A DNA stretch of 64,000 nucleotides from Candidatus Tectimicrobiota bacterium (lineage in GTDB: Bacteria > Tectomicrobia > Entotheonellia > Entotheonellales > Entotheonellaceae). The stretch lies in assembly GCA_026005175.1 (NCBI GenBank), contig BPKO01000004.1:248001-312000 (forward strand). The letters run 5' to 3'. Position numbers and translations under genes: made by a program. Below, piece by piece: positions 9,155-36,461 of the stretch. Under the pieces are notes generated by a model, which saw only the letters and a program-made list of their open reading frames with translations, was not told the DNA's origin and did not search any database. Positions within the stretch are counted from its first letter, which is position 1. Each line of letters opens with the position of its first letter.

Positions 9155-10015
9155 TCAGGGCCGCGCCTGGCGCTGCATCCAAGCCTCGATTTCCTGCCGG
9201 AAGAGGCGCAACCGTTGCGGCGCGCTGCGCAGCGCTGCGAGCACCTGGCCCAAGTCAATGGTCACGTACTCGTGGACCAGCACGTTGCGAAAGCCACCGG
9301 AGCCTCGCAGGCGGCCGTAGAGCTCCGCAGAGATCACGCCGGCCGCTTGCAACTCCGACAGCAGGGCCTCGTAACTCGTTGCCGTTCTGCCGTACGCCTG
9401 GCTCAGGATGGGATCGGCAACGTGAAAGACCACCGAGAGCCCTGCCAGCAAGCCGCGCTCTATCGTCCAGCGCAGGCTGAGATTCGTCGTCAGTTGGGCC
9501 TCGGTCGTCTCCCGGTACTTTTCCAGCTCCTGGGCGATGCGCTCCAGCTCGGCCAGGGCATGGGCCAAGAACTCGGGTCGTAAGGTCATACGCCCCTCCC
9601 GGGCGGCGTTGGCGGCAGGCCCGCGGGGTTCCTTAGGGGGACGGCGGGTGCGCTGCGCCAGCTCCCGCCACTGTGCGCGTTTGCCGGCTTCAAAGCGGGC
9701 GCGCTCGAGCGGCGACCGCTCCAGAATGCAGCGCCCTGCAAGAATGTCCGCCACCAGGTAAGGCGGTGCCAGGCGAAGGTCGACCACTTCCAGCCGATCC
9801 GTCTCCAGGGCCAGCGACAGATCGGCATAGAGTTCGGGGTAAGAGAAAGGGGGCTCCGGGAGCACCGCGATATCCACGTCCTGAGGGGAGGCGGCCGCTG
9901 CGGCTGCTGAGCCAAAAAGATAGGCCAAGCGCACGGGATGGCGCCGCAACACCGCCGGAAGCTGCGCCAGGCACGCCGCAGCCTTTTCTGCCGGTGGCGC
10001 GTGCGCTATGCTCAC
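9155..10015 (-). CDS. Fused MNT nucleotidyltransferase - HEPN (HepT/DUF86-like) protein
   Basis: N-terminal LFGSAAAAAASPQDVDIAVL (GSX9DXD, MNT-type); C-terminal RNVLVHEY (RX4HXY HEPN motif). Single uninterrupted frame; internal ATG at 9590 preceded by GGGAGGGGCGT. Confidence 0.8.
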   Translation of the reverse strand: MSIAHAPPAEKAAACLAQLPAVLRRHPVRLAYLFGSAAAAAASPQDVDIAVLPEPPFSYPELYADLSLALETDRLEVVDLRLAPPYLVADILAGRCILERSPLERARFEAGKRAQWRELAQRTRRPPKEPRGPAANAAREGRMTLRPEFLAHALAELERIAQELEKYRETTEAQLTTNLSLRWTIERGLLAGLSVVFHVADPILSQAYGRTATSYEALLSELQAAGVISAELYGRLRGSGGFRNVLVHEYVTIDLGQVLAALRSAPQRLRLFRQEIEAWMQRQARP

Positions 10016-12453: not shown

Positions 12454-15400
12454 TTATCTGACAAACTTCCATCAGGTAAAAACTTCCAACAGCATGGTCA
12501 CAGAGGAGAAGAGACAGTGATAGCATACCGGTCTTAATCCCTTCTTCATCAGGTCAAAACTTCCAACGGGGAGTTTCTGGAGGAAAACACGGGGAGCATC
12601 ATACAGGTCTTAATCCCTTCTTCATCAGGTCAAAACTTCCAACGTTACTTACGGTGCGGCGCGCATCGAGGAGCTAGGCAGTCTTAATCCCTTCTTCATC
12701 AGGTCAAAACTTCCAACCGAGCTGCTCGATGCTACCGTCTCCCTCACCCGCATCCTCCACCGCGTCTTAATCCCTTCTTCATCAGGTCATCGGTTCGAAC
12801 ATTGGCTGATTGAATAAGGATAAAGGGAAAAGATATGACACCAATGTCTTAATCCCTTCTTCATCAGGTCATCGGTTCCAACGATACCGCTGGCGGTCTG
12901 ACTCTAGTGCAAAAAGAAGCAGGGGTCTTAATCCCTTCTTCATCAGGTCATCGGTTCGAACACGATGTCGGTGCATGCTTTGCCTTCGGCGGCCTGCCGG
13001 CGCCGCTCGTCTTAATCCCTTCTTCATCAGGTCATCGGTTCGAACCCGTTGGCACAGACGTGCCAGGAAATCCACTGCCGTCTTAATCCCTTCTTCATCA
13101 GGTCATCGGTTCGAACATTAGACGCAGATTGCGGACACTCTGAAGCAATATTTATCAGTACGTCTTAATCCCTTCTTCATCAGGTCATCGGTTCGAACGC
13201 TGCAGCATGACTATGCTATGCCGTGACCACTTGCGTCTTAATCCCTTCTTCATCAGGTCATCGGTTCGAACAGCCGAGCCGTCCTACGGATCGGCAGCCG
13301 GCCGCGTCTTAATCCCTTCTTCATCAGGTCATCGGTTCGAACCCGTGCACAGCTGGGCGATGCTGCCACGCGCTGCGCGTCTTAATCCCTTCTTCATCAG
13401 GTCATCGGTTCGAACGCCGCAGGCTTGCCACGTCGAGTCTGCGACTGGTCTTAATCCCTTCTTCATCAGGTCATCGGTTCGAACTAGCATGGCTGCGCTC
13501 CCTGGCGGCGGCGACGAAGCGTCTTAATCCCTTCTTCATCAGGTCATCGGTTCGAACCCCGCTCAGCGCATGTAGCCGCTACGCCGTCTTAATCCCTTCT
13601 TCATCAGGTCATCGGTTCGAACGCCGCTCTATGCTCCTACCGAGTCAGCCGGCCGGCGTCTTAATCCCTTCTTCATCAGGTCATCGGTTCGAACGCCGCA
13701 GGCATAAAGCACACGATCGAGTCTGCGACGAACTAGTCTTAATCCCTTCTTCATCAGGTCATCGGTTCGAACCCCGGCCTGACTGCGGACCTCGCGCGAG
13801 CTGGCGCAGTCTTAATCCCTTCTTCATCAGGTCATCGGTTCGAACGCTCTCACGCTCCTGGGGCGGGCCCCGTGGCCGCACGTCTTAATCCCTTCTTCAT
13901 CAGGTCATCGGTTCGAACACTCGGGGTCAGCAATCCGGCAGAGCCCATGTATCGCGGGTCTTAATCCCTTCTTCATCAGGTCATCGGTTCGAACACACTG
14001 CCGGCCCGGGCGCACCCGGGTGCCAGCAGAGTCTTAATCCCTTCTTCATCAGGTCATCGGTTCGAACATGACTGTGACAAAGTGGGAGTGCGCTCGTCGA
14101 TGCATCAGGTCTTAATCCCTTCTTCATCAGGTCATCGGTTCGAACCACGGCATCATCGGCTACGGACCGGACGCAGGTGCAGGGTCTTAATCCCTTCTTC
14201 ATCAGGTCATCGGTTCGAACTCCTGCGGCCCACGTGGCGCACCGCCAGCCTGTGTCTTAATCCCTTCTTCATCAGGTCATCGGTTCGAACCCGATCTCGC
14301 GCCAGACAGCAGCGGTATCTGCACTTGTCTTAATCCCTTCTTCATCAGGTCATCGGTTCGAACCACCTCCAGCCAGCACTTGTGCGACACGGAGTGAGAT
14401 CGTCGCGTCTTAATCCCTTCTTCATCAGGTCATCGGTTCGAACGTCTTGTGGTCGTATCCTTGGATCAGTCCTTGCAAGAGGTCTTAATCCCTTCTTCAT
14501 CAGGTCATCGGTTCGAACTGTGAGGGCAGATCTGGGTGGTGCTTAGCGATGACGTCTTAATCCCTTCTTCATCAGGTCATCGGTTCGAACGGCCTGCTCC
14601 ATGGGTAGCAACCTCAAGCGTCTTAATCCCTTCTTCATCAGGTCATCGGTTCGAACTCTTTCCAAATGCGGCGTGGCTCACCGGCAGGCGTCTTAATCCC
14701 TTCTTCATCAGGTCATCGGTTCGAACACCTTGGCAGGGGATATATGTTGGACCTTGTCTTAATCCCTTCTTCATCAGGTCATCGGTTCGAACATCTGGTA
14801 CGGACGGGCGTGACAACGTTTATGCATCGGGTCTTAATCCCTTCTTCATCAGGTCATCGGTTCGAACAGGCGATGGAGCTGCTGGCGCGGCAGGCCCAGC
14901 GCAGGACGCGGTCTTAATCCCTTCTTCATCAGGTCATCGGTTCGAACAGGAACTGGCGGAAAAAGTGGTCATCCGCGTGCGGCGTCTTAATCCCTTCTTC
15001 ATCAGGTCATCGGTTCGAACCATCCCGGGTGGCCGCTCGACTGCACCGAGCGCCGGAGGTCTTAATCCCTTCTTCATCAGGTCATCGGTTCGAACCGGAT
15101 CACGCTGCGAGGGACGATGACGAGGCCAGAAGTCTTAATCCCTTCTTCATCAGGTCATCGGTTCGAACGGAGCTCTGCGGCAGCTGCGCGCCTGCATGGT
15201 CTTAATCCCTTCTTCATCAGGTCATCGGTTCGAACTCAGGTACCAGGCTGCTAGAGAGAACGCAGCTGCGTGTCTTAATCCCTTCTTCATCAGGTCATCG
15301 GTTCGAACCCGTCGCGAGCCACTGGTCACCGTACTAAAATCAGTCTTAATCCCTTCTTCATCAGGTCATCGGTTCGAACTGGGTCTAGTAGGAGGGCGAC

Positions 15401-16674
15401 CAGCGCTGGCAGGTCTTAATCCCTTCTTCATCAGGTCATCGGTTCGAACTGACAGCTCTATCGGCAGAAGTCAACGTGATACGTCTTAATCCCTTCTTCA
15501 TCAGGTCATCGGTTCGAACCCTCTGGCTGCATCCTATGCGACACTGTGCGATATGGTCTTAATCCCTTCTTCATCAGGTCATCGGTTCGAACCACATGGA
15601 CGCGTCGACGACTGAGCACTGCAGAAACCGTCTTAATCCCTTCTTCATCAGGTCATCGGTTCGAACACGTGGCCATCTGTGCGTCAGCTTTGGGATAGTC
15701 GAGTCTTAATCCCTTCTTCATCAGGTCATCGGTTCGAACCCTACCTATCGGCTTGATCCCTTCGGTCTTACGCCTGCGTCTTAATCCCTTCTTCATCAGG
15801 TCATCGGTTCGAACGTCTGGCCAGCTTGAGATGAGCAGCGCACGTCGTCTTAATCCCTTCTTCATCAGGTCATCGGTTCGAACACTCCGCGCCGCGTAAC
15901 TCACTCGAGATCCTCGTCTTAATCCCTTCTTCATCAGGTCATCGGTTCGAACCAGTATCGGCGCTACCGATCATCCGCCGATTGTCTTAATCCCTTCTTC
16001 ATCAGGTCATCGGTTCGAACTCACGGCGCCTACGGCGCGTCGTTGCCGCGGCAGGTCTTAATCCCTTCTTCATCAGGTCATCGGTTCGAACGACATGTCA
16101 GAATATCCTGACGATGCGTCATGGACTAAGGGTCTTAATCCCTTCTTCATCAGGTCATCGGTTCGAACTCGTCAAGTTGCTGAATCGGGCTGCCTAGCGA
16201 ACGAGATGTCTTAATCCCTTCTTCATCAGGTCATCGGTTCGAACTACTCGTACGTGTCGCACGTAGGATGAGTGGGTCTTAATCCCTTCTTCATCAGGTC
16301 ATCGGTTCGAACGGACCACGTACTGCTGCTAGCCAAGGCCCTGACGGCAGTCTTAATCCCTTCTTCATCAGGTCATCGGTTCGAACGACTCATGCCGCCG
16401 CAATCTACCATCCGCAGTCTTGTCTTAATCCCTTCTTCATCAGGTCATCGGTTCGAACCCGTGACACATGCAGCGTCGCGCGATGCAGAGGAGTCGTCTT
16501 AATCCCTTCTTCATCAGGTCATCGGTTCGAACAGGCCATTGACGCGATCATGCCAGTCGGCCTTGCTGTCTTAATCCCTTCTTCATCAGGTCATCGGTTC
16601 GAACCCGCAAGTCCGATGAAGAGCGTCCAAGTCTGCCGTCTTAATCCCTTCTTCATCAGGTCAAAACTTCCAAC
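12454..16674 (-). CRISPR. CRISPR array: 57 intact 37-nt repeats plus one degenerate terminal repeat (12454-12490); 57 spacers of about 28-47 nt. Probable transcription on the minus strand.
   Basis: Repeats read by eye. Internal + strand repeat GTCTTAATCCCTTCTTCATCAGGTCATCGGTTCGAAC; repeats 1-3 (12531, 12607, 12681) and the last (16638-16674) end in AAAACTTCCAAC. On the minus strand the 3' tag is ATTAAGAC. The left terminal repeat is degenerate at its minus-strand 3' end, consistent with a leader-distal end. Confidence 0.97.
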
Positions 16675-16880
16675 AGTAGGCCCCGGAAGGGCGCACGCAT
16701 TGCCGAGCCGCGCTGCCCCACTGCCTAACCTGCCTCCATGCCCCTTGCCGGCTCCCTTTCGGCGGCGTTTTCCACGCCGGGGAGAAAGCAGTTTCTTCCA
16801 CAATTTCAAGGCCTTGTCGGCAATGCCTAACCTCCCCCGGGGAAGCGGGCAGCCGGCGGTTAGACACCGCCATGACCGGC
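16675..16880 (-). promoter_or_regulatory. Putative CRISPR leader region
   Basis: Noncoding segment between cas2 and the non-degenerate end of the array. Confidence 0.45.
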
Positions 16881-17161
16881 TCACAGCACGTACACGGACT
16901 CATCTCGGTAAACCTTCCCCTGTCCAAGCGTACGGATTTTGTCGCGGCAGCTTTGGCAAAGAAAATAAAGGCGCACGTCGTCGGCAGCCGGATCGATGAC
17001 GCGCTGGAGCCGCGCGCAGAGCCGCTCCAGCCGCGTGGCGTGGTCGAGCTCCATTTCAAACACGCTGCGCTGGGGGCCCGATCGCCAAAGTCTTCGAGGA
17101 TTTTGGCAACTTTCAGGCGGCGCTGGTCGTCGCTGATGTCGTAAGCCACCACGTAAAACAT
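16881..17161 (-). pseudogene. cas2: Cas2, one apparent frameshift near the C-run at about 17080
   Basis: [28 protein letters not shown] in one frame, then [42 protein letters not shown] in another. The break lies at GGGCCCCC, so sequencing error is possible. Confidence 0.8.
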
Positions 17162-17441
17162 CCCCTGCCTCCTCTTTACCACCGTAGCACAAATGGCACG
17201 TACGGCTCGCCGCGCGTCAAATGCGCTGCCAGGCGCTCGGCCTGGCGCCGGAAGCTCTTGCGCAGCGTGGTGGTTTCTCCAGAAAGACGATCTGTGAACT
17301 CGCGGTTGAGGTGCTCTTCGTAGGCCCCGGAAAAACTTCCCCAGCGACTGCCGCCGCAGCCGCACGCCCCCGTGCTGCGCGTCAGCAACAAAATCCTCGG
17401 GCTGCATCACCCGCAGGTTCGCCAGGTTCAGTACCAGCCGG

Positions 17442-19028
17442 TCAACTGCCGGCACCCGAAACTCCTCCAGCAGGTCCAGCGCCAGCGAAGGGCGGCCATA
17501 GTCGAGCTGGTGATAAAACCCAGTAACCGTTCAGGTGGGGCAAAGGATTATGCCGCTGCCCGCTGGCATGCGCAGGTCGTCTGTGGGCAGCAAGGAGGGT
17601 GCCGCCTTCGCCCCGCAAAGCCGCCTCACACGCGCCGGTGAGATAAGCAAGGGGATTGCGACGTTGCTGCTTCAGCGTGGTAACCACCGTCATCATGGAC
17701 TCGACAAAGCGCGACCCCTGCGCACTCTGCGTCCCAAAGCTGCCCTTGCGCCAAAGCACCCCAGGACGCAGCGCCCGCTCGGCCGCGTTGTTCGTCGGCT
17801 CCACCCCCTCCAGGTGCACAAACGTCCACAAGGCCTGATGCAGCTTCAGCAGCTCCCGGCAGACCCCTGCGGTCTTGGGGTGGCCACAGCGGGTGCCAGC
17901 TTCCAGCAGCTCTTCGACTTTGCGCCGCACCGGGGTCATGTAATTGCGAAAGCTCGAGCGCTTCAGCGTCCCGTCGCGCACCCGGTGCCACCAGTGAAAC
18001 ATCCGATGGGCCTCGTCGCGCAGGGCTTCACCAAGCTCCTGGGAGCGGCCACCGCGTGCAATCATCGCTTCGATATCGCGCAGCAGATGCGCCCAGCACA
18101 GCTGCCGCCAGCGCACCGGGTACCAATTGTAAGCGCTAAAGCGATCCGTCACCAGGATGCCTCGAAACGGCTTGCCCAGCAGCTCGCGCACCACTTGCCC
18201 CCCACGCGACAAGCGCACCAAGAACACCGTCACCCCCTCTGTCACGGCCGCCCACAGCCAAGCTCGCTGCCGCCCCTGGCGCCAGCCCGTTTCGTCCATC
18301 GACACGCTGGCCTGCTGCTGCACATAAGCCCGCGCTTCTGCCACGGGCACCGCCACGGCCTGGGCAGTGGCCGCCTCCAGGGAAGGGATGGTCCCCAAGC
18401 TCATCGACACGCCAAAGAGATCGTCCAGCAGCTGCTGCGTGGTGCGCTTGGAGAGGCGATAGGCCCCCGTACACAGCGCCACGAGGGCCTGCACCCGCGG
18501 CCCATAGACCCCGCTTGGGACTCCCTCAGGCCATGCCGCCCGCGTGGTGGCTCCGCAGGCCGCACACACCAACTGATGCACCTGATACTCGGTCACCACC
18601 GGCTTGAGGGGAGGAATTTCGACAACTTGATGCCGCTGCGGCTGCGGGTCTTCGCCCGCCAGGGGCTGCTGACAACGGGCGCATGCCTTGGGCTTGAGCG
18701 GGATCACCACATCCACGTCTTCCATGGGCACCAGCGTCCGGGTCTGCCCCGGGTGACCGGGCTGTCCCCCGCGACGCCGTCCACTGGGCTGGCGACGTGG
18801 TCGCTGGCGCGCGGGCGGATCACTCGAAGGTGGCCGCGACGAGGTGCGCGAGTCCTGCTGCACGCGCTCCCGCAGCTCCTGCACGGTGGCCTCCAGCGCC
18901 GCCACACGGGCTTCGAGCGCGAGGATATAGTCCTGCGCTTCGCGCGGTGTACGATGCCAGATCTCAGGAGGTAAAGGTAGATGCATTGCCATGGAGCGAT
19001 CATACGGCATCAACAACGGGTGTGACAA
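17442..19028 (-). CDS. IS66 family transposase (ORF reads out through the IS end into cas1 sequence)
   Basis: [97 protein letters not shown]. Confidence 0.93.
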
Positions 19029-19056
19029 GACGAATTTTGGGAACCTGAACGGTTAC
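17523..19056 (-). mobile_element. IS66-family (single-ORF, tnpC-only type) insertion sequence, 1534 bp
   Basis: 14-bp perfect terminal inverted repeats GTAACCGTTCAGGT (17523-17536 / 19043-19056); 8-bp target duplication AAAACCCA at 17515-17522 and 19057-19064. Confidence 0.95.
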
Positions 19057-19913
19057 AAAACCCAAGGTAAGGGTCGTAGCCCATGGCATCGAGCAGGCTG
19101 GTAAGCTCGGCGTTGACCAGGACGTAGCCAAAGGAAAGCAGCGCGTTGACCGGATCGGTAGGAGGACGACGGCGACGGCCAGGGAAGGCCAGCTCCTGAC
19201 GGCAGGGCCCAGCCCGAAGCCCTGAAAGTACGTGCGTGCCGCCGTGCCTTCCAGCCCGCGCAGGGCCTCGAGGGTGGGCACAGCTTCGATGCGGCGCAGC
19301 AGGCGCTGCAGTTCCTGGCGGTAGGCGTCGAACCCGCGCTCGGGATAGTTGCGGTGCTGGCGCGTCAGCAGCGCCAGGGCATTTTCGACTTTCCCCCGCA
19401 CGAACGCCCGCGCCAGAGCCAGCGCCCGGGCCGGATCCTGGCCCTTCTGGTACTGCGCCATGCGCAGCAACACGTTTTTGGCTTTGGGTGGCGTAAGCTG
19501 CCCCCGCAAACGGCCGCTCATCGACAGAAAGGCGAGCTCGATGCCGTGCTCGAGCAACGCGATGAGTGCCGGCGTGGTGAGGTGTACGGTGCCAAACACG
19601 AGGATGGTGTCGAGCTTGAAGCACTCGATCTCCAAGAGCTCCTGCCCTTCTTTCTCGACGATCAGCCGCTCGCCCGTTTTGCGCACTACGGCCCCCTGCT
19701 CGGTGAGATAAAGCGTGGCCATTCTTCCCCCTCATTGCCAGGAGGCTCACGCCGGCCCCCCGGCAACCAGGGCCGAAACTCGCGGTAGTCGCGCTGCCAC
19801 ACGCCGCTGTCGATGAGGCGCTCGTAGCTCTGGTCGCTGTGGCGCGCCAGCTCGCAGACGCGGAGGCTTCCGTCGTCGGCTTCGAAAAAGAACAGCCGTT
19901 CATCGCTGCCCGC

Positions 19914-19947
19914 GTCTCAATCCCTTCTTCAGGTCAAAACCTCCAAC
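19914..19947 (-). repeat. Solitary variant CRISPR repeat between csm5 and cas1
   Basis: GTCTCAATCCCTTCTTCAGGTCAAAACCTCCAAC (34 nt); matches the array-end repeat except for lack of CAT and two substitutions. Minus-strand form ends ATTGAGAC. Confidence 0.85.
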
Positions 19948-19967: not shown

Positions 19968-21317
19968 TCAGCCCTCCTGAGGCACCAGCTGCACCCATCC
20001 CAGCGCCCAACGCGCCGCGCCGTCCTCGTAGGCCACGCGGCGCGTCTTAGGAAAGGGCGCCGTATGATCAAGCTGCCCCGTGCGCGGCACCGCCCCCAAG
20101 CGATACCGCTGGCGCAGCGCCTGGAAGCCGTTGTCCCCCAGTACTGTCCGGGCCAGGTCGCCCAGGGTCTTCATTTCCCAGCCCCCGCCCCAGCCCACGT
20201 TGAGCAAAAAGCCTCCCTCTGGCAGCGCAACCAGGGTGGCTTCCAGCTCGGCGTAAAAGTCGCGCAGCGGCTCAAGCCCGTGCTCGGTATAAAACGCTTT
20301 CTCTGCGGCAATCAGCGCCCGGGCGTAGGCATTGCAGGTGCGGGCTAGCTGCCGCACCGCCTCTTCCCTGGCCCCGCGCAGCCGCAAGTCGCGGTTGGCC
20401 GCAGGCGAAAAGAGAAAGACGTCGAGGCCAATGGCCACGCGCAGCGCCGTATCGGGCAGCAGCCACTCGACAAAGGCCTTATATTCCCCGTCTGCCTCGC
20501 GCTTCTCCACCAGGCGCTGGCCGCGCAGGGTATAGGTCCACACCAGCCCTACGGCCAGCCGCTCGAGGCCGCAGGCCGTGCTGTCCTGAACCTGTACCGC
20601 CCGCATGAGGTCGTGGTTGGGCGTGCGTCCCAGGAGCTCGCGCTCGACGTCCTGGGCCAGCCACTCACGGCGGCGCCCCAGGCCTTGCAACCGCTGCTGC
20701 AACCGGCGCCAATCTCTCTGAAGCGCCCCTTCGCGCACGCCACAGAGGCGATACAGGGTCTGCTGGTAATGCTGTGCCTGCTCGCGCCCAACCAGCTCGG
20801 CCAGGATGGCACGGTGGGTTTCCGCGTCCTCGAAGGCCCGCTGCTGCCGGAGCTTGTTGAGCAGCTCGTCCTTGAGCTGACAGAGGGTCAGGTACTGCCG
20901 GAGAAAGGCCTGGTGCTCGGCACTGTCTTTGGCCAGGGACCAGAGCACGGCGGTGCGCACCGCGCCCTTGACCGAGGTGCCAGGCAGGTAGGGCTGCCCG
21001 TAGGCGTCCTTGATGGCCTCGCGGATGGGCACGCGGGCGGGGTCCTCCGGACAGCGCAGGGTATACGCTGCCACCGCCTCCGGTGGCAGCTGGCGGGCAC
21101 GCAGCAGGTCGAGCCAGGCAAAATCCCGCGCGTCCATGGCGCGGGCTAGCGCAGCGGCGTCCAGGCCGTGAGTTAACACCCGCTCGAGGTCGATACGGTG
21201 CCACTGGCGGTCGGCGTATACGCCGTCGAAGTGGCCAAGCTGTACTCCGCTGCCCACGTGTACCGGGCTGAGACAGGTCAGCATATAGGTGGTAGTGACT
21301 TTGATCTCCTGTGTCAT
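19968..21317 (-). CDS. csm5: Type III-A CRISPR RAMP protein Csm5
   Basis: MTQEIKVTTTYMLTCLSPVHVGSGVQLG...YLPGTSVKGAVRTAVLWSL; operon position. Confidence 0.9.
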   Translation of the reverse strand: MTQEIKVTTTYMLTCLSPVHVGSGVQLGHFDGVYADRQWHRIDLERVLTHGLDAAALARAMDARDFAWLDLLRARQLPPEAVAAYTLRCPEDPARVPIREAIKDAYGQPYLPGTSVKGAVRTAVLWSLAKDSAEHQAFLRQYLTLCQLKDELLNKLRQQRAFEDAETHRAILAELVGREQAQHYQQTLYRLCGVREGALQRDWRRLQQRLQGLGRRREWLAQDVERELLGRTPNHDLMRAVQVQDSTACGLERLAVGLVWTYTLRGQRLVEKREADGEYKAFVEWLLPDTALRVAIGLDVFLFSPAANRDLRLRGAREEAVRQLARTCNAYARALIAAEKAFYTEHGLEPLRDFYAELEATLVALPEGGFLLNVGWGGGWEMKTLGDLARTVLGDNGFQALRQRYRLGAVPRTGQLDHTAPFPKTRRVAYEDGAARWALGWVQLVPQEG

Positions 21318-22348
21318 TTCTTTACCCCTACGGGAAAGGCGTACCCGTAGCGCCACACCGCGTGCGGGCAGCGCTCTGGCTTGACGCTCACCAGCCGCCC
21401 GAGACGCATGCCCTCAGGGCGGGGGAAAAGCGAGCCCTCGGCAAACATCCACACCATTTGCCGCCGCAAATTGGCAGCCTCTGGCGAAGTGACCCACCCG
21501 CGCCGCGGCATGAGCTCGTACGCCGCCCCTTCTGCCAGCAAGATGGCAAGCTCTTCGCGGCGCGGGCACAGGGGAGAGAGGGTAACAAAGTGCGAGGCGG
21601 CCTCGGCTTCGGGCAGGGGTTCCTCCCGCACCGGTTCCAGCTCGAACAGTCCCCGGCCGGCGCCGCGCTCCCCGCCCAGGCCGCTGTCGCCCAGCAGCCG
21701 CAGGCAGGCCTCGAACCGCTGCCGCAAGCCGTCCCCGTGGTCCTGGTTGAAATCCACGGCAAACCACAACCCCACCCCGGGAGCGAACCGCACCTCGCCA
21801 AAGTGCCAGATCTCCGAAGCCTGGGTGAGGCGGTCGAGGGTCACCCGCGGCACCACGGCCTCCTTCCACAAGACGATGTCCTCCGTGGCGTCGTCGGTCC
21901 ACGGCGCCAGCGCCGCTTTCTCCACCTCGCTCACCCACACGGTGCCGCCGTTGAGGCAGTGCTTCTTCTCGAAGCGCAGCGCCTCGCCGCTGACCAGTGC
22001 CGCAAAGACCCGCTCGGAAACCCAGCGCACGCGCTTAAACGCCTTTTCGTCTTCGGCCTCGAGGTGGCCCAGGCGGGCCAGCGGCTTCGGGAACAGGCGC
22101 ACCTCTCCGGCATAGGGAAACGCCGAGCTCAGCAGAAATGGCTCGCTTCCGGCTTCGGCCTCGGTAAACCAGTCCAGCACGTCCTGCTCCAGAGCCTCCA
22201 CGCCGTAGAGCGTGCGCCAAGCCATGCACAGGGCGCTAAAGAGGGTATCGGCCGGCACGTGGGTGCGCGTTGCCTCCAGCCCTACCCCGCGCTCGCCAAT
22301 GTGCAACGGCGCGCGGAAATGCAGACGATAGGTGACAAATTCGGCCAC
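21314..22348 (-). CDS. csm4: Type III-A CRISPR RAMP protein Csm4
   Basis: MAEFVTYRLHFRAPLHIGERGVGLEATRTHVPADTLFSALCMAW; GLGGERGAGRGLFE. Confidence 0.9.
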   Translation of the reverse strand: MAEFVTYRLHFRAPLHIGERGVGLEATRTHVPADTLFSALCMAWRTLYGVEALEQDVLDWFTEAEAGSEPFLLSSAFPYAGEVRLFPKPLARLGHLEAEDEKAFKRVRWVSERVFAALVSGEALRFEKKHCLNGGTVWVSEVEKAALAPWTDDATEDIVLWKEAVVPRVTLDRLTQASEIWHFGEVRFAPGVGLWFAVDFNQDHGDGLRQRFEACLRLLGDSGLGGERGAGRGLFELEPVREEPLPEAEAASHFVTLSPLCPRREELAILLAEGAAYELMPRRGWVTSPEAANLRRQMVWMFAEGSLFPRPEGMRLGRLVSVKPERCPHAVWRYGYAFPVGVKK

Positions 22349-22353
22349 TGTCC

Positions 22354-23187
22354 TTACTCCTGGAGCAGCTTCTGGATCCTCTCCGCATAGGCCTGTGGCT
22401 GTAGCTCAGCCACCGTCAGGTTTTCGGCCAGAGTCTCCAGGCCTTTTTTTCCCTCGTAGTAACCATGCGGTTTGCACACCACATGGATGTTGCGGAACGC
22501 AATCTTCCCCGCTCCGCGCGAGCCGTACCCTCCGAGGTAGTCGTCCTCCAACAGCTCCATGGCCTTGAAGACGTACTGGAGCCATGCCACATCACTTTCC
22601 CACCCCTGGCCGTTGAGGGCGTAAATTCCGTAAACGAGCTCGAACGGCGCGAATATCGCCCCAGCCGGCACCCGCTCGTTTTGCCGCGGCACTGCTGCCG
22701 AGGTGATGCGGTCGATGGCCGCTTCCCATTTCACCTCGGTAAACGGCAAGTCCGTCTTAGCGCGACGCAAGCGTTCGGTCGCTTCATGATCGGCCGCCAG
22801 ATGAACATCGCGTACCAGGAGCCGCGCGGGCTTGAGCTGCGACCAACTCCGCCGCTCTCGTTCCCCTGGGGTGACCCCGAAGATCTGACAAACAGCGCAG
22901 TTAGAGTATTTGTCCTCGTTGTCGCAAACGTGCACCCGTACCTTCGGCTCCTCTCGACGAATGTCATGATTCGCCTCGTTGCCGAAGTGCCTGTCCAGCA
23001 ACGAACGCATTTTCCCGCGCAGAGACGACCCCGGAATGTAGGGCTCGCGGCTTACGGGATGGCGAATAATGGGATTGTCGATTCCGCCAATATCAAGCCC
23101 CGCTGCCGCTCCCCCGATATGGAGTCCCGTCACTGCCTCTACCGAACCGCTAATAATCACTTTGCCCTTTAATGTCAGGCTCGCCAT
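22354..23187 (-). CDS. csm3: Type III-A CRISPR RAMP protein Csm3
   Basis: MASLTLKGKVIISGSVEAVTGLHIGGAAAGLDIGGIDNPIIRHPVSREPYIPGSSLRGKMRSLLDRHFG. Confidence 0.95.
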   Translation of the reverse strand: MASLTLKGKVIISGSVEAVTGLHIGGAAAGLDIGGIDNPIIRHPVSREPYIPGSSLRGKMRSLLDRHFGNEANHDIRREEPKVRVHVCDNEDKYSNCAVCQIFGVTPGERERRSWSQLKPARLLVRDVHLAADHEATERLRRAKTDLPFTEVKWEAAIDRITSAAVPRQNERVPAGAIFAPFELVYGIYALNGQGWESDVAWLQYVFKAMELLEDDYLGGYGSRGAGKIAFRNIHVVCKPHGYYEGKKGLETLAENLTVAELQPQAYAERIQKLLQE

Positions 23188-23200
23188 GGCATCCCTCCTT

Positions 23201-23590
23201 CTATCTGCCGCCGGCGGCTTTGTGATAGGCCAGAATAGCCTCGAAGAAATCGACGAATCTTGTAAATTTCTTCTCGTCATCTCCGACTTCGTCGATGGCC
23301 CATGACAAAACGTCTTTCAATTCTCTAGCCCCCTGCACATTCGCCCGGGCCGCCGCGTAGGCGAGTTTTGGCTTCAGCAACACAAATTCTCCGGCATCAA
23401 AACCACGCATTTCCATTTGCTTGACCATGCCGTATATGTTACGGATCTGGCTTGTCGTCAATCCGGTCCGCTGCAATCGCGGTCCGAGTCTTTCGGCTAC
23501 CTGGACAAGGACCTTTCCTCCCTGGCGAATGACCTGCTGAACTTCCCCCTGAGACAACGATTCTCCTCCCCTTGGCTCCTGTCTAGCCAT
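23201..23590 (-). CDS. csm2: Type III-A CRISPR small subunit Csm2
   Basis: LTTSQIRNIYGMVKQMEMRGFDAGEFVLLKPKLAYAAAR...FTRFVDFFEAILAYHK. Confidence 0.9.
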   Translation of the reverse strand: MARQEPRGGESLSQGEVQQVIRQGGKVLVQVAERLGPRLQRTGLTTSQIRNIYGMVKQMEMRGFDAGEFVLLKPKLAYAAARANVQGARELKDVLSWAIDEVGDDEKKFTRFVDFFEAILAYHKAAGGR

Positions 23591-23593
23591 GGC

Positions 23594-26136
23594 CTATTCC
23601 TCCCTTGTCAGTAGGGCGACCCAGCGTGCGAGCACGTGCAGGAGGGCGATCAGCCCCTGGGACTCGCGCAGGATCGCCTGTCCGAGCGCCTCGATGGTGG
23701 CGTTGTGCGCCGGGTAGCGCTCGCCAAAGCGGCTCAGCTGGTACACCAGGCGCCAGCGCCAGCGGTCGTACTGAATGGCCTCTTCGATCTGCGCCAGGGT
23801 GGCCTGTCCCTGGCGCTGCAGCCGCCGCTGATACTTGGCGTTTTCCTCGTACAGGGCGTAGATCTCCGAAAGGCGCGTCAGAAAAGCGCGCGGCAGGGCT
23901 GCCGCGCCGTTTTGCAGCATGGCCTGGAGCTTCTCTTTCCACTGCGCCACTTCCGCAAACTGCTCCCAGCCGAGCGGCGTTTGCAGGAAGCACAGGGCGT
24001 CTTTGGCCCCGGCCATCGGGGCGCCGCAACGCCTTCGCATACTTGGCGTTGTCAAGAGTGTCCTTGGCGTTGTTGGCCAGCTGGTAGAGCGGGAACTTCT
24101 GGTGCTCGATGGCGATGCCGCCCGAGAGGGTCACGTGGTCGCCGCCGACGAACCGCCGGAAGTCGTCGCGAAGGCGCCGTGCCACTTCTGGCAAAACACT
24201 CCAGGCGCCGACGAGGAACAAATCGTCACCGCCGGCGTAAATAAGGTACAGGGTGTCTTCTTTACCGCGGGAAAAGCTGTTGTACTCGCGGCACACCCGT
24301 GGCACCCAGGCTTCGAAAAAGAGCCGCAGCGACTCGCTCAGGGTGCTCATGCGCGAGATGGTGGCTTCTTTGCCCAGGCCGCGCCGGAAGACTTCGCCCA
24401 GGCTGTCGACGTCCATGCGCAGCACCCCCAGCCACTCGACCCCCTGGGAGGCCTTGGCCAAGTCGCTGAACTCGGCGATGACCTCTTCGCCGTTGTCTCC
24501 GCGCTTGAGCGGCGTGGCACCGGCCAGCAGGCGGAAGTCGTAGCTCACCGGCAAGTCGCCCCAGCGAAACCGCTGCACGACTTCCTCAGAGAGGAACGCT
24601 ACCGTGTCGAGGACATACACGGTGGCCGCCGTGGCCCCGGTGGGGCGAGGCACCGCTTCATCTGCCTGCACCAGCCAGGCCTCGGCGCCAAAGGCCCGCA
24701 GGGCGTGGCGCCAGTCGCCGTGAGGCGGCGGCTCGCTTTCGGCAACCGTAAAAAGGACGAGGTGGGTGGGCTGGCGCAAGCGCTTCCCGAGGTCTTCGAA
24801 GCCGCGGCAGTGCTGGCACTTGCGCACGCCTTCTTCCACTTCGAGCGTGCCCTCGTTGTGGCAGACCTGGCAGGTGTCTGCTGCGGTGGTGCCGGCCTGG
24901 CGGGCGGTAAACAGGTTCTCGTGCATGGCCTCGGGCCCCAGGTCTGCCCACTTGCGCTGCTTGCGCTCGCCGACGCGCCGCGAGACCTCGTCCCACTTCG
25001 TGGCAAAAGCGTTGCCACCGGCCTCTTCTTCGAGAAAGTCCCGCGCCGCCACCGGCACAAAATCCACGGTCAGGAAGAGGTCGCCGCGGTGGGCGGCCCA
25101 CAGCTTGCGCGCAATCTCCTGCCGCAAGCCGTCCAGCTGGCGCACGGTTTCCTGGTACGGGAGAAGGAGGTAAAAGTGGCCGCCGCCGGCAAAGAGCAGG
25201 TTCACGGGCGGCAGGGCAAAGCGGCGCAGCAGCCAGTGGGCAATCACTTCAGTGAGCAGCTGCAAGTAAAACGAGCGCCCGCGCAGGCCGCGGGCGGCGC
25301 CGCTGCTGGTGAGCAGGTAGAGAAAGTCCTGGGTGCCTGAAATGTCCCCCTTGACCAGGGCGCACAGCGGCCGCTCCAGTAGCGCCGCTTCGCGCGGCGT
25401 GAGGGGCTCCTTCTTGAACAGCCGCGTCAAGGCGTCATACAGGGTCCGCACCTCGTCTTCGGCCAATCCCTCCCGCACCAGGCAGGCGGCAATCGCCGCC
25501 GTGGTCTTGAGGTGGTGGTAGAGCGAGATGTCGGGAACGATGTCGCGGCGCGTGTCGGAGGGAATGGCCCAGGTGTACTTGTGTAGCAGCGCCAGCAGGG
25601 TCACCACGTCGCCGCGCGGCACGCGGGCCATCTCGGCGGCAAAGTCCTGCCACAGCGCGCGGTACGCCGCGGCCGAGCCGGCCATTTCGGGATGCGGAAA
25701 AAGGGCGTCCTCTTCGAACGACAAGGCGCGCAGCGTGTGGTAGCGCGGCCCCTCGGCGCTTCGCCCGTCCCACTGGACGCGCGACAAAACGGTGCGCAGC
25801 GTGGTTTCTGCCCGGCCGCGGGCGCCCTCGGTGTCGCCTTCGGCTTCGGCGCGTTCGTTGGCCGAGAGACGGTCGGCCAGGCTCACCAGCAGCTCGTCGT
25901 GCAGCTCGGGGCCGTGGTGCTTGAGCACCAGGCGCCGCAGCGAGCCGGCGTCGAGCGGCCAGCCAGACAACTGCTCTTCGACAAACAGGGCACTGCAGGG
26001 CTCGTGGCTGTAGCGGGCCCTCGCGGCGAAACCCTTCGGCCCACGCGGGCAGGGGCTCGAAGGTGCGCTCGCGAAACTTGCCGATGTCGTGGAGCAGGGC
26101 GCCGAGGGTGATGAGCACTTGGTCTTCATGCCTCAT
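23594..26136 (-). CDS. cas10: Cas10/Csm1, apparent frameshifts at about 26020 and about 24020
   Basis: HD motif GALLHDIGKF at N-term; GDISGTQDFLYLLTSSGAARGLRGRSFYLQLL; zinc-type CxxC pairs CQVCHNEG/CQHC; GGDD in YAGGDDLFLVGAW; C-terminal QAMLQNGAAALPRAFLTRL in a third frame. Confidence 0.92.
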
Positions 26137-27118
26137 GGCGAACTCCGTCGTGCTCTAGGACGTACTTGCCCAGGCCAAAGCTGCTGCCTTTGCCCACGTG
26201 GACAAAGGTGCCCAGCTGCAGCAGGGGCAGGAAGGGCTGCCAGGGGCCGCGGTAAGTGACTTTCCCGATGACGCCGCCCAGCTTCATGCGCGTGTCCTGG
26301 CGGGCCGAGTAGCGCTCCCAGTCGTACCAGCGCAGCCGCTGCGCCACCGTTTCGACCTCGCTGGCCTGGGCAATCAGGCCGCGAAAGTCCAGCTCCAGCG
26401 CCGCGCCGCAGTGAAAATAGGCCAGGTTGGCCAGCCGCCGCAGCAAGGCGCGCACGAGCACGTGAAAGTCCAGGCGATCCGTCAGGGCCCCGCCGTAGAC
26501 CAGGCGCGCCGGGGTAAGAAAGCGCAGGGTGAGCAGGGAAGACGTCGCCAGGACTCCAGGCGCGACGAGCTCCCGCGCTTCGAGGGCGCGGTAGCCGCTG
26601 CGCAGCGTCTGGTCCTCTCCACGGTAAATCACCACTTCCTGCCCTCCCGGCGCCAGCCAGGCGACCGTTTCCACCGCAAAGCGCCCCCGCCCTTTGCCCA
26701 GCCCGTGCTGTGCCCCTAGCCGCTCGAAGGCGTAGATGAAATAGGGCAGATAGTCGGCGCCGCGCCCGATCAGGGTGCAGTCAAAGCTCAGGGTCTCGCC
26801 CGGCGCATAGCGCGTTTTGGCCTCTAGCGGCGGCAGCAGCACAAACGGGTGCGGGGCGGCAACGTACTTGCGCATGCGCGTGGCCCCCTCGGGCACCGGC
26901 GTGTCAAAGACGTAGGGATAGGCACAGCGGGACCGCAGCAGGCAGCGCTGGCAGTCGCGGTGCTCGACGACGCACACCGTGTCTTTGAAGACCGCCCCAA
27001 AGCCCCCGCGCAGCGTCGATCCCTTGTAGCGCGGCAAGTGCAGGGCCGTCTGCGCCCGCAAGACAAAGCGCACGGGCAACAGCTTTAGCACTTGCCACGG
27101 CTCATCCACCGGTATCAC
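26126..27118 (-). CDS. cas6: Cas6 family pre-crRNA processing endoribonuclease
   Basis: LHLPRYKGSTLRGGFGAVFKDTVC, CQRCLLRSRCAYPYVFDTP, GKVTYRGPWQPFLPLLQLGTFVHVGKGSSFGLGKYVLE. Confidence 0.92.
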   Translation of the reverse strand: MIPVDEPWQVLKLLPVRFVLRAQTALHLPRYKGSTLRGGFGAVFKDTVCVVEHRDCQRCLLRSRCAYPYVFDTPVPEGATRMRKYVAAPHPFVLLPPLEAKTRYAPGETLSFDCTLIGRGADYLPYFIYAFERLGAQHGLGKGRGRFAVETVAWLAPGGQEVVIYRGEDQTLRSGYRALEARELVAPGVLATSSLLTLRFLTPARLVYGGALTDRLDFHVLVRALLRRLANLAYFHCGAALELDFRGLIAQASEVETVAQRLRWYDWERYSARQDTRMKLGGVIGKVTYRGPWQPFLPLLQLGTFVHVGKGSSFGLGKYVLEHDGVRHEA

Positions 27119-27329: not shown

Positions 27330-28580
27330 TCACGCCCACAGCGCCGCAAAGCGCGGCAGTGCCGCTTCTTCGAGGCCCAGCAGCTCCATGAGCAGGGCGC
27401 GAAAGCGCCGGTAGCCGCCCTCGCCCACCGGATCCTCGCCGTGCCCCAGCGGCGACTGGTTGCGCAGGCCAAGCAGCTTCACCACCTCGTCTTGCCGCGC
27501 CATAAAGGCCTGCCCCAGGGGGTCGCCCAGGGCCGCCAGCAGGCGGTAGGCGGCCATGAGCGGCACCTTGAGCTTGCCGTCGCGGGGGTCGCGGTAGCGC
27601 TGCGCGTACTCCGCGCGCAGCGCCTCGGGCAGCTGCTCGGGCGATACGTCTTCGGTGTGAATGCCGTAGTGCTGCCGCAGGCGAAAGCGGGCAGCGCGCT
27701 CTAGAGCGCTGTAGAGGCGCGCCACGGCGTCTTCGTACTTGCCTTCGCGCTGCGCGCGGCGGTCGGCGTTGGCAATGAGGTCGGCAATGTAGGCTTCGTC
27801 CCGGCTCTCGGACCGCGTCAGCTGCTGCAAAAAGGCCAGGTTGGCTTCCATCTCCTGCACCCCCTGCCGCAGCGCCGCCCGCCCTGCCCCCTGGGCGTAG
27901 GGCTTGAGAAAGCGCAGGGCCTGCCCCAGCTTGGGCAGGGCGTCGCGGTGGCGAAAGTTGTCCCAGTCGCAATAGGCCGCCGCAGCACTGGCCAGGGCGC
28001 GCATCACTTCCTGCTCCTGCGGCTCGAGGTGGCCCTGCAGGCGCTCGAGCTCGCGCCAGGCAATTTCGTAGCGCGCGGTGTCCCAGTAAAGGCGCAAGCG
28101 CTGGCGCTCTTCTTCGGCCCACTCGCGCCAGGGGTTGTGCACACGGAGCATGCGCTCGCGCCCGCCGATGACCACCCCCACGCCGCCTTTGTCGCGCGCC
28201 ACGCCGCCAACGTAGCTGTAGCGGTGCGCGCGCCGCAGGGTGGCCAGCACCAGCGCCGCCGACATGGTCTTGGTGCCGCCGGTATAATCGACCACCAGCG
28301 TCTCTTCGCTCACCCCCCACTGCGCCAGCTTGGCCGGCAGCTGCTCGCGCAGCACGCGGTAGCAGACGCCAAGGTCCTCGGCGTCCGGCGTGACAAGGCG
28401 GTCGCTGTCGGCGTAGCGGTAAGTCAGGGCGCGGATGACGTCCTGGATCTGCGGCGCCGTTTCAGTAGAGACAAAAAAGAGCACGTAGGCCGGCTGCTGC
28501 TGGTTGAGGCTGTAAATCACCGGCTCAGGACTGCCCCCCAGCGACAGCAGCATGGCGCGGCACGTCTCGGGTTCGCTCAT
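27330..28580 (-). CDS. CARF-HEPN type III ancillary protein (TIGR02710-like)
   Basis: LVVDYTGGTKTMSAALVLATLRR (CARF-type); AVARLYSALERAARFRLRQHYGI; HEPN-like LRNQSPLGHG (RX6H). Confidence 0.85.
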   Translation of the reverse strand: MSEPETCRAMLLSLGGSPEPVIYSLNQQQPAYVLFFVSTETAPQIQDVIRALTYRYADSDRLVTPDAEDLGVCYRVLREQLPAKLAQWGVSEETLVVDYTGGTKTMSAALVLATLRRAHRYSYVGGVARDKGGVGVVIGGRERMLRVHNPWREWAEEERQRLRLYWDTARYEIAWRELERLQGHLEPQEQEVMRALASAAAAYCDWDNFRHRDALPKLGQALRFLKPYAQGAGRAALRQGVQEMEANLAFLQQLTRSESRDEAYIADLIANADRRAQREGKYEDAVARLYSALERAARFRLRQHYGIHTEDVSPEQLPEALRAEYAQRYRDPRDGKLKVPLMAAYRLLAALGDPLGQAFMARQDEVVKLLGLRNQSPLGHGEDPVGEGGYRRFRALLMELLGLEEAALPRFAALWA

Positions 28581-29098
28581 GCTTCTTCCTCCTGCCGGGC
28601 CAGCCCGGCCACGTAGCCCCCGTGCAGGGTGGTCCAGAACTCGTAGCGCCCCTGGTTGAACTGGTAGACCTTGACCGGCACCCAGTTGTCAAAGAGGGCG
28701 CCGATGGCGCAGGCCACGGCCAGGGGACAGGACAGAAAGAGATGCACCTCGCTGACCCCTTCGTCTTGCAGGCGGTTTTTGAGTCCCTGCAGCTCCAGCA
28801 GCAGCCGCGGCACTTCAGCCGGCGTCAGGCCGCGGGCGCGCTGCACTTCGTAAATGCGCATTCCCGGCCCCAGGCCGGCGCAGAAGTCTTCTACCGCCGG
28901 CCGGATGCGCGTGCCGGCCAACGACACCGCCAGCGCTGCCGGCCGCGCCGAGGTGATGCCTTCGAGCTGGCGCAGGTGCCGGCGCAGCCGCCGCGCCCGC
29001 GACAGAAAGTAGGCCGCGGTGCCCAGAAAGGGCACGGCGCTGACAATGCCCAGCAAGTCGGCCAGGTGGCCAATGTGGTCCCAGCTCAGCCAGTTCAT
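28577..29098 (-). CDS. N-terminal transmembrane + SAVED-like domain protein, putative cOA-responsive membrane effector
   Basis: TM segment LADLLGIVSAVPFLGTAAYFLSRARRLRRHL; SAVED-like block VSEVHLFLSCPLAVACAIGALFDNWVPVKVYQFNQGRYEFWTTL; 4-bp overlap with the CARF-HEPN gene. Confidence 0.72.
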   Translation of the reverse strand: MNWLSWDHIGHLADLLGIVSAVPFLGTAAYFLSRARRLRRHLRQLEGITSARPAALAVSLAGTRIRPAVEDFCAGLGPGMRIYEVQRARGLTPAEVPRLLLELQGLKNRLQDEGVSEVHLFLSCPLAVACAIGALFDNWVPVKVYQFNQGRYEFWTTLHGGYVAGLARQEEEA

Positions 29099-29191
29099 GC
29101 CGGGTCTCTCCCTTTCGTGGCAGGCGTGACCCAAGGGGCCAATGTACCCCGCGCCGGCGGCCATGGCGAGCAAAACAGCATTGACAAACCG

Positions 29192-34437: not shown

Positions 34438-36461
<2,024 letters not shown>

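Follow-up and report, generated by a model that had tools for sequence, protein, structure and literature searches.

The CRISPR array of this Candidatus Tectimicrobiota bacterium carries two versions of its repeat in contiguous blocks, with a single leader-proximal repeat of the version found at the trailer end. The array, which lies in a window of 64,000 nucleotides (the whole stretch of DNA that was analysed), is most likely an uncommon but not unprecedented record of CRISPR array mixing, and not evidence of a new mechanism. With a probability of roughly 0.55, it is an ordinary type III-A array whose two repeat versions came to stand in blocks through leader-side recombination combined with normal adaptation.

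A script run over the window located 57 exact copies of a 25-nt core, GTCTTAATCCCTTCTTCATCAGGTC, between positions 12531 and 16674, which bears out the invariance of these 25 nt claimed in the initial annotation. The other 12 nt of the repeat occur as AAAACTTCCAAC (hereafter A) in repeats 1, 2, 3 and 57 and as ATCGGTTCGAAC (hereafter B) in repeats 4 and 6-56; the degenerate terminal repeat also has an A end. The scan reproduces the distribution of the two ends described in the initial annotation, whose repeat list left implicit one variant, repeat 5, with the end ATCGGTTCCAAC, that is, B with one A-like base. Repeat 57 differs from its neighbours at 5 of 37 sites; of the five diagnostic sites, repeat 5 agrees with A at one (probability for a random substitution, 0.045). 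Six A-like matches were counted in the window vs 0 in 100 shuffles, and the repeat pattern cannot be a chance product. Since both repeat types stand in contiguous blocks, the array counts as a mixed-repeat array. Read from the trailer end, the order is A, A, A, B, B', B, whereas a simple gradient would be A, B', B, and the step from A to B comprises five substitutions without a full series of intermediates. In RNA folding, A can lengthen the stem with GUUUU:AAGAC and B cannot; as the z-score is only -1.9, no claim is made on a functional meaning of this difference.

Table 1. Features of the CRISPR array and the adjoining type III-A locus (positions in the window).
Feature	Position	Strand	Remarks
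CRISPR array, degenerate terminal repeat and 57 repeats of 37 nt	12454..16674	-	Minus strand gives the RNA sense; leader on the right; orientation by synteny
Degenerate trailer-end repeat	12454..12490	-	Core decayed; retains the A end
Repeats 1-3, A end AAAACTTCCAAC	12531..12717	-	Repeat scan
Repeats 4-56, B end ATCGGTTCGAAC	12764..16604	-	Repeat scan; repeat 5 differs by one base
Repeat 5, ATCGGTTCCAAC	12846..12882	-	Repeat scan
Repeat 57, leader-proximal, A end	16638..16674	-	Repeat scan and syntenic leader side
Leader, two AGGTTAG motifs	16675..16880	-	Homologous to the G002 leader; local score 72.3 vs a maximum of 68.6 in 300 shuffles
cas2	16881..17161	-	Read in two frames, break at ~17069 in GGGCCCCC
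cas1, C-terminal part	17179..17522	-	
IS66-family insertion in cas1, 1534 bp	17523..19056	-	Terminal inverted repeat GTAACCGTTCAGGT; target duplication AAAACCCA at 17515-17522 and 19057-19064
cas1, N-terminal and middle part	19057..19722	-	One frame break at ~19207
Solo repeat-like element, 34 nt, A-like	19914..19947	-	Between csm5 and cas1; not in G002
csm5	19968..21356	-	
csm4	21314..22348	-	
csm3	22354..23280	-	
csm2	23201..23590	-	
csm1/cas10	23583..26129	-	Frame breaks vs G002 near 26062 and 24012
cas6	26126..27118	-	
csx1 (CARF-HEPN; TIGR02710)	27330..28580	-	

The array belongs to a locus that lies wholly on the minus strand, in the order csx1, cas6, csm1, csm2, csm3, csm4, csm5, solo repeat, cas1, cas2 and array (Table 1). 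Its assignment to type III-A follows from cas10/csm1 with csm2-csm5 (NCBIfam TIGR02578, TIGR01870, TIGR02582, TIGR01903 and TIGR01899), accompanied by Cas6 and the CARF effector Csx1/TIGR02710. The adaptation genes are not intact, cas1 being interrupted by an IS66 element, but these genes are optional in type III-A and the assignment is unaffected. Adjoining csx1 and cas6, a SAVED-domain ORF at 28577-29173 suggests a second cyclic-oligonucleotide sensor of the locus, and a fused MntA-HepT-like ORF (nucleotidyltransferase and HepT) is found near the CRISPR locus at 9155-10015. The solo element has the same orientation as the array repeats and a 3-nt deletion in the core; it stands directly after an AGGAGG..ATG start and ahead of an open stretch of 50 residues. 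It may serve as a Cas6 site within the cas mRNA or be left over from an array.

The leader side was established by comparison with a genome of the same family (G002), in which cas6-csm1-5-cas1-cas2 is followed, ~200 bp on, by an array of GTCTGAAGTACTGCCCTGATGAAGAAGGGATTGAAAC with 20 repeats, uniform except for one trailing substitution. The locus in the window mirrors this arrangement, which places the leader to the right of repeat 57 and makes that repeat leader-proximal. In three arrays with the identical core from other stretches (L033, L039 and L043), cas2 and cas1 lie on the same side; together with the G002 synteny, this rules out a leader at the left end and gives independent support to the leader-side position that repeat 57 had been assigned. 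The two leaders align above shuffles and have two AGGTTAG motifs in common, and the capture of a foreign leader is thus not supported. Neither the array flanks nor the solo-repeat flanks gave an alignment above shuffles as a copy of the leader. The G002 locus resembles that of the window in gene order, in its homologous leader and in the conserved part of the repeat; it differs by having uniform repeats save one, no solo repeat between csm5 and cas1, and a cas1 in one frame.

The same genome gives a polarity to the two repeat ends. In RNA sense the repeats start with GTTGGAAGTTTT (A), GTTCGAACCGAT (B) and GTCTGAAGTACT (G002), and the G002 end is like A at 8 of 12 positions and like B at 6 of 12. 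The end of the solo element, which had been described as nearly A, agrees with A at 11 of 12 positions and with B at 6. Since the G002 end is nearer to A and both the terminal and the solo repeats are A-like, sequence comparison marks A as the ancestral and B as the derived version, the polarity already proposed in the initial annotation.

The insertion in cas1 is a member of the IS66 family by its transposase (profile NF033517; ORF listed as 17442-19028, minus strand), its terminal inverted repeats of 14 nt and its exact 8-bp target duplication, and three more near-identical copies are present elsewhere in the genome. Two other intact Cas1 genes occur in the genome beside unrelated arrays, and adaptation of this array in trans by them is possible. 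Frame breaks are also found in cas1, cas2 and csm1, several of these breaks sitting inside GG..CC runs. These frameshifts were set aside as proof of decay, because the housekeeping gene uvrB (34438-36451) is equally broken, over at least five frames, and GG..CC runs are inflated in every stretch of the genome examined (3-7% of blocks vs 0.7% in a relative). Both features indicate that the assembly contains systematic indel errors, a possible reason for its 77% completeness, and the frame breaks probably arose as errors in a consensus built from long reads. At the end of contig 9 of the same genome (L056 15782-19400), an array of GTCTGAAAGACCATTAGGCCCTGAAAGGGATTGAAAC shows a C run of variable length (3, 4, 6 or 8) in repeats dispersed along it, and the GG..CC artefact is again the probable cause.

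A consensus so rich in indel errors, with its GG..CC expansions, its broken uvrB and the breaks in csm1, cas1 and cas2, raises the possibility of an assembly or population chimera, in which reads from two strains, one of type A and one of type B, would have been fused at the repeats. The error pattern and the 14 contigs point to long reads, though, which would span the 4.2 kb of the array; the difference consists of five substitutions repeated in 53 units and not of indels; and A repeats at both ends (1-3 and 57) would need two independent joins. Such a chimera is therefore improbable.

An exact scan for the 25-nt core, with one genome per species, retrieved it from 15 further stretches of Gammaproteobacteria, Betaproteobacteria, Deltaproteobacteria, Acidobacteria and Nitrospira. 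The 12-nt ends varied among these stretches and were uniform within the array, the leader-proximal repeat included, in nearly all cases with several intact repeats. The division into core and end is thus generic: as a core common to several phyla goes with different ends, the 12-nt end is the freely varying part, which drifts between lineages, and the 25 nt the part that stays.

The recombination events and their order, as we infer them, start from the established rule that new repeats are copied from the leader-proximal repeat (cited in PMC3396285). Under this rule the 12-nt end of the template repeat would set the type of all later repeats, and the template would have passed from the ancestral A to B, which supplied ~53 repeats, and then back to A with no surviving addition. 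The best explanation of the return is that the template recombined homologously with an array or strain of type A, the conversion tract entering through the common cas2/leader side and stopping at repeat 57, where the spacers differ; a tract of this kind would require no crossover inside 25 nt. The exchange of the template would fall after the last recorded spacer. Repeat 57 may have stayed single because adaptation ceased (cas1 with IS66) or because younger A units were deleted between repeats, a deletion that would keep the leader-side end.

The initial annotation had held that, under standard adaptation, repeat 57 should match its neighbours. This objection falls away: repeat 57 does not match its neighbours, yet the rule asks for a match only where the last change of that repeat was followed by the uptake of a spacer, and the array obeys the rule as long as no surviving spacer is younger than the change. 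A single exchange that postdates the youngest surviving spacer suffices, so the adaptation rule is not contradicted. The same two changes of the template could in principle have occurred without recombination, by mutation in situ to B and an independent back-mutation of repeat 57, and repeat 5 does stand one step from B toward A. That five sites of a single 37-nt repeat should revert exactly, with nothing else changed, is very unlikely, and this course of events is remote. Since mutation offers no credible route to such a reversion, exchange with an A-type sequence is the preferred reading of the last step. The reading by leader-side exchange is favoured by the A base in repeat 5, the phyla-wide core with its varied ends, the IS66 in cas1 and the continuity of spacer length at the border of repeats 3 and 4; it is weakened by the lack of a donor among 5 genomes of the phylum, of a simple gradient and of full intermediates. 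The rarity of spacer rearrangements reported with SpacerPlacer, together with that of between-array recombination, for which Kupczok et al. are cited there, also counts against it (PMC11472070).

As for the donor, no second array with this core is present in the assembly, even at 3 mismatches; the two other arrays of the genome, on C4 and C9, have unrelated repeats, and an array within the same genome was therefore rejected as the source. No A or B repeats were found in the other genomes of the phylum (5 in all) or in viral contigs, and no pure A- or B-type arrays in the 5 phylum genomes, viral contigs, phages and plasmids. An A- or B-type sister array that could serve as donor was likewise missing among the 5 genomes of the phylum, and a pure-B array was found nowhere in the material searched, which covered few relatives (5 phylum genomes). 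Methylocaldum szegediense has, on its 25.7-kb plasmid MSZNORminor, a cas-less array with repeats of the same family (L067 9632-10720).

These searches bear on block replacement or insertion, by which a B-type stretch from another locus, plasmid or species would have entered through crossovers in the 25-nt cores of repeats 4 and 57. A single event of this sort would account for both borders and for all five substitutions, a core identical across phyla and the cas-less Methylocaldum plasmid array fit with it, and repeat mixing by recombination has been proposed for Pyrobaculum (PMC3396285). Against it, two crossovers within 25 nt of identity and a donor would be required, and a B-type array was found neither in the own genome nor in the 5 phylum genomes and viral contigs. 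The spacers speak in the same direction. The strongest change point of their length (permutation p 0.0005) follows spacer 8, the means being 41.7 and 35.4; it falls inside the B block and not at the A/B border. Spacers 4-8, the oldest on the B side, are similar in length to the A-side spacers 0-3 (p 0.54) but not to spacers 9-56 (p 0.009, post hoc). Length thus runs on across the border of repeats 3 and 4, which suggests uninterrupted growth of the array there, and the shift after spacer 8 is a weak argument against a B block of foreign origin having been attached at repeat 4. Block insertion is accordingly judged unlikely; of the recombination proposed in the initial annotation, the involvement of recombination as such stands, and block replacement through the core is neither its sole nor its simplest form. 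Spacers 12 and 16 (13379-13735) have TCGAGTCTGCGAC in common and both start with GCCGCAGGC, as if from related targets. A search for protospacers or related arrays in phages gave a single 29-nt match, at chance level.

Internal, or ectopic, integration would turn the history around: repeat 57 and spacer 56 would always have been present, and Cas1-Cas2 would have inserted new spacers at a B repeat behind them. The repeat next to the leader would then not be the template, and no second change would be needed for it to be ancestral. Ectopic acquisition has been described for type II-A (PMC7999890) and, with an altered leader, for Sulfolobus locus E (PMC4390879), whereas the array of the window is type III-A with a normal-looking leader. 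The conservation of this leader with G002 makes no misdirecting defect evident, a separate origin of the five B substitutions would still be needed, and spacer 56, with 33 nt, is not unusual in length. Such integration is quite improbable, and even less probability was given to the idea that in this type III-A system integration takes place behind a leader-proximal repeat which does not serve as template, so that the ancestral repeat and its spacer act as part of the leader, with the other type multiplying behind them.

Mixed direct repeats in blocks have been described for crispr1 of Pyrobaculum oguniense and crispr5 of P. neutrophilum, with recombination as the proposed cause (PMC3396285). 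The type III repeats of P. oguniense, like those of the window, differ in a 5' motif and are otherwise conserved; unlike the window, the text on Pyrobaculum holds no case of a lone leader-proximal repeat back to the trailer-end type (PMC3396285). Recombination between repeats and between loci was inferred in Sulfolobales, including Sulfolobus solfataricus (PMC4390879). Degenerate or variant terminal repeats have been reviewed (PMC8047081), and that of the window is degenerate in the RNA 3' part, as is usual (PMC8047081), which accounts for the trailer end only and not for repeat 57. What is new is that one leader-proximal repeat alone is back at the ancestral type, a detail of which no description was found in the literature examined.

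The observation is real, uncommon and informative, and most likely reflects ordinary recombination in a type III-A array with an interrupted cas1. If the reading by leader-side exchange is right, the variable end of the repeat would mark swaps of the template and date recombination against the order of the spacers, and a first repeat that differs from its neighbours need not imply non-canonical adaptation. If internal integration were true instead, the order of spacers in such arrays would not be readable as time.
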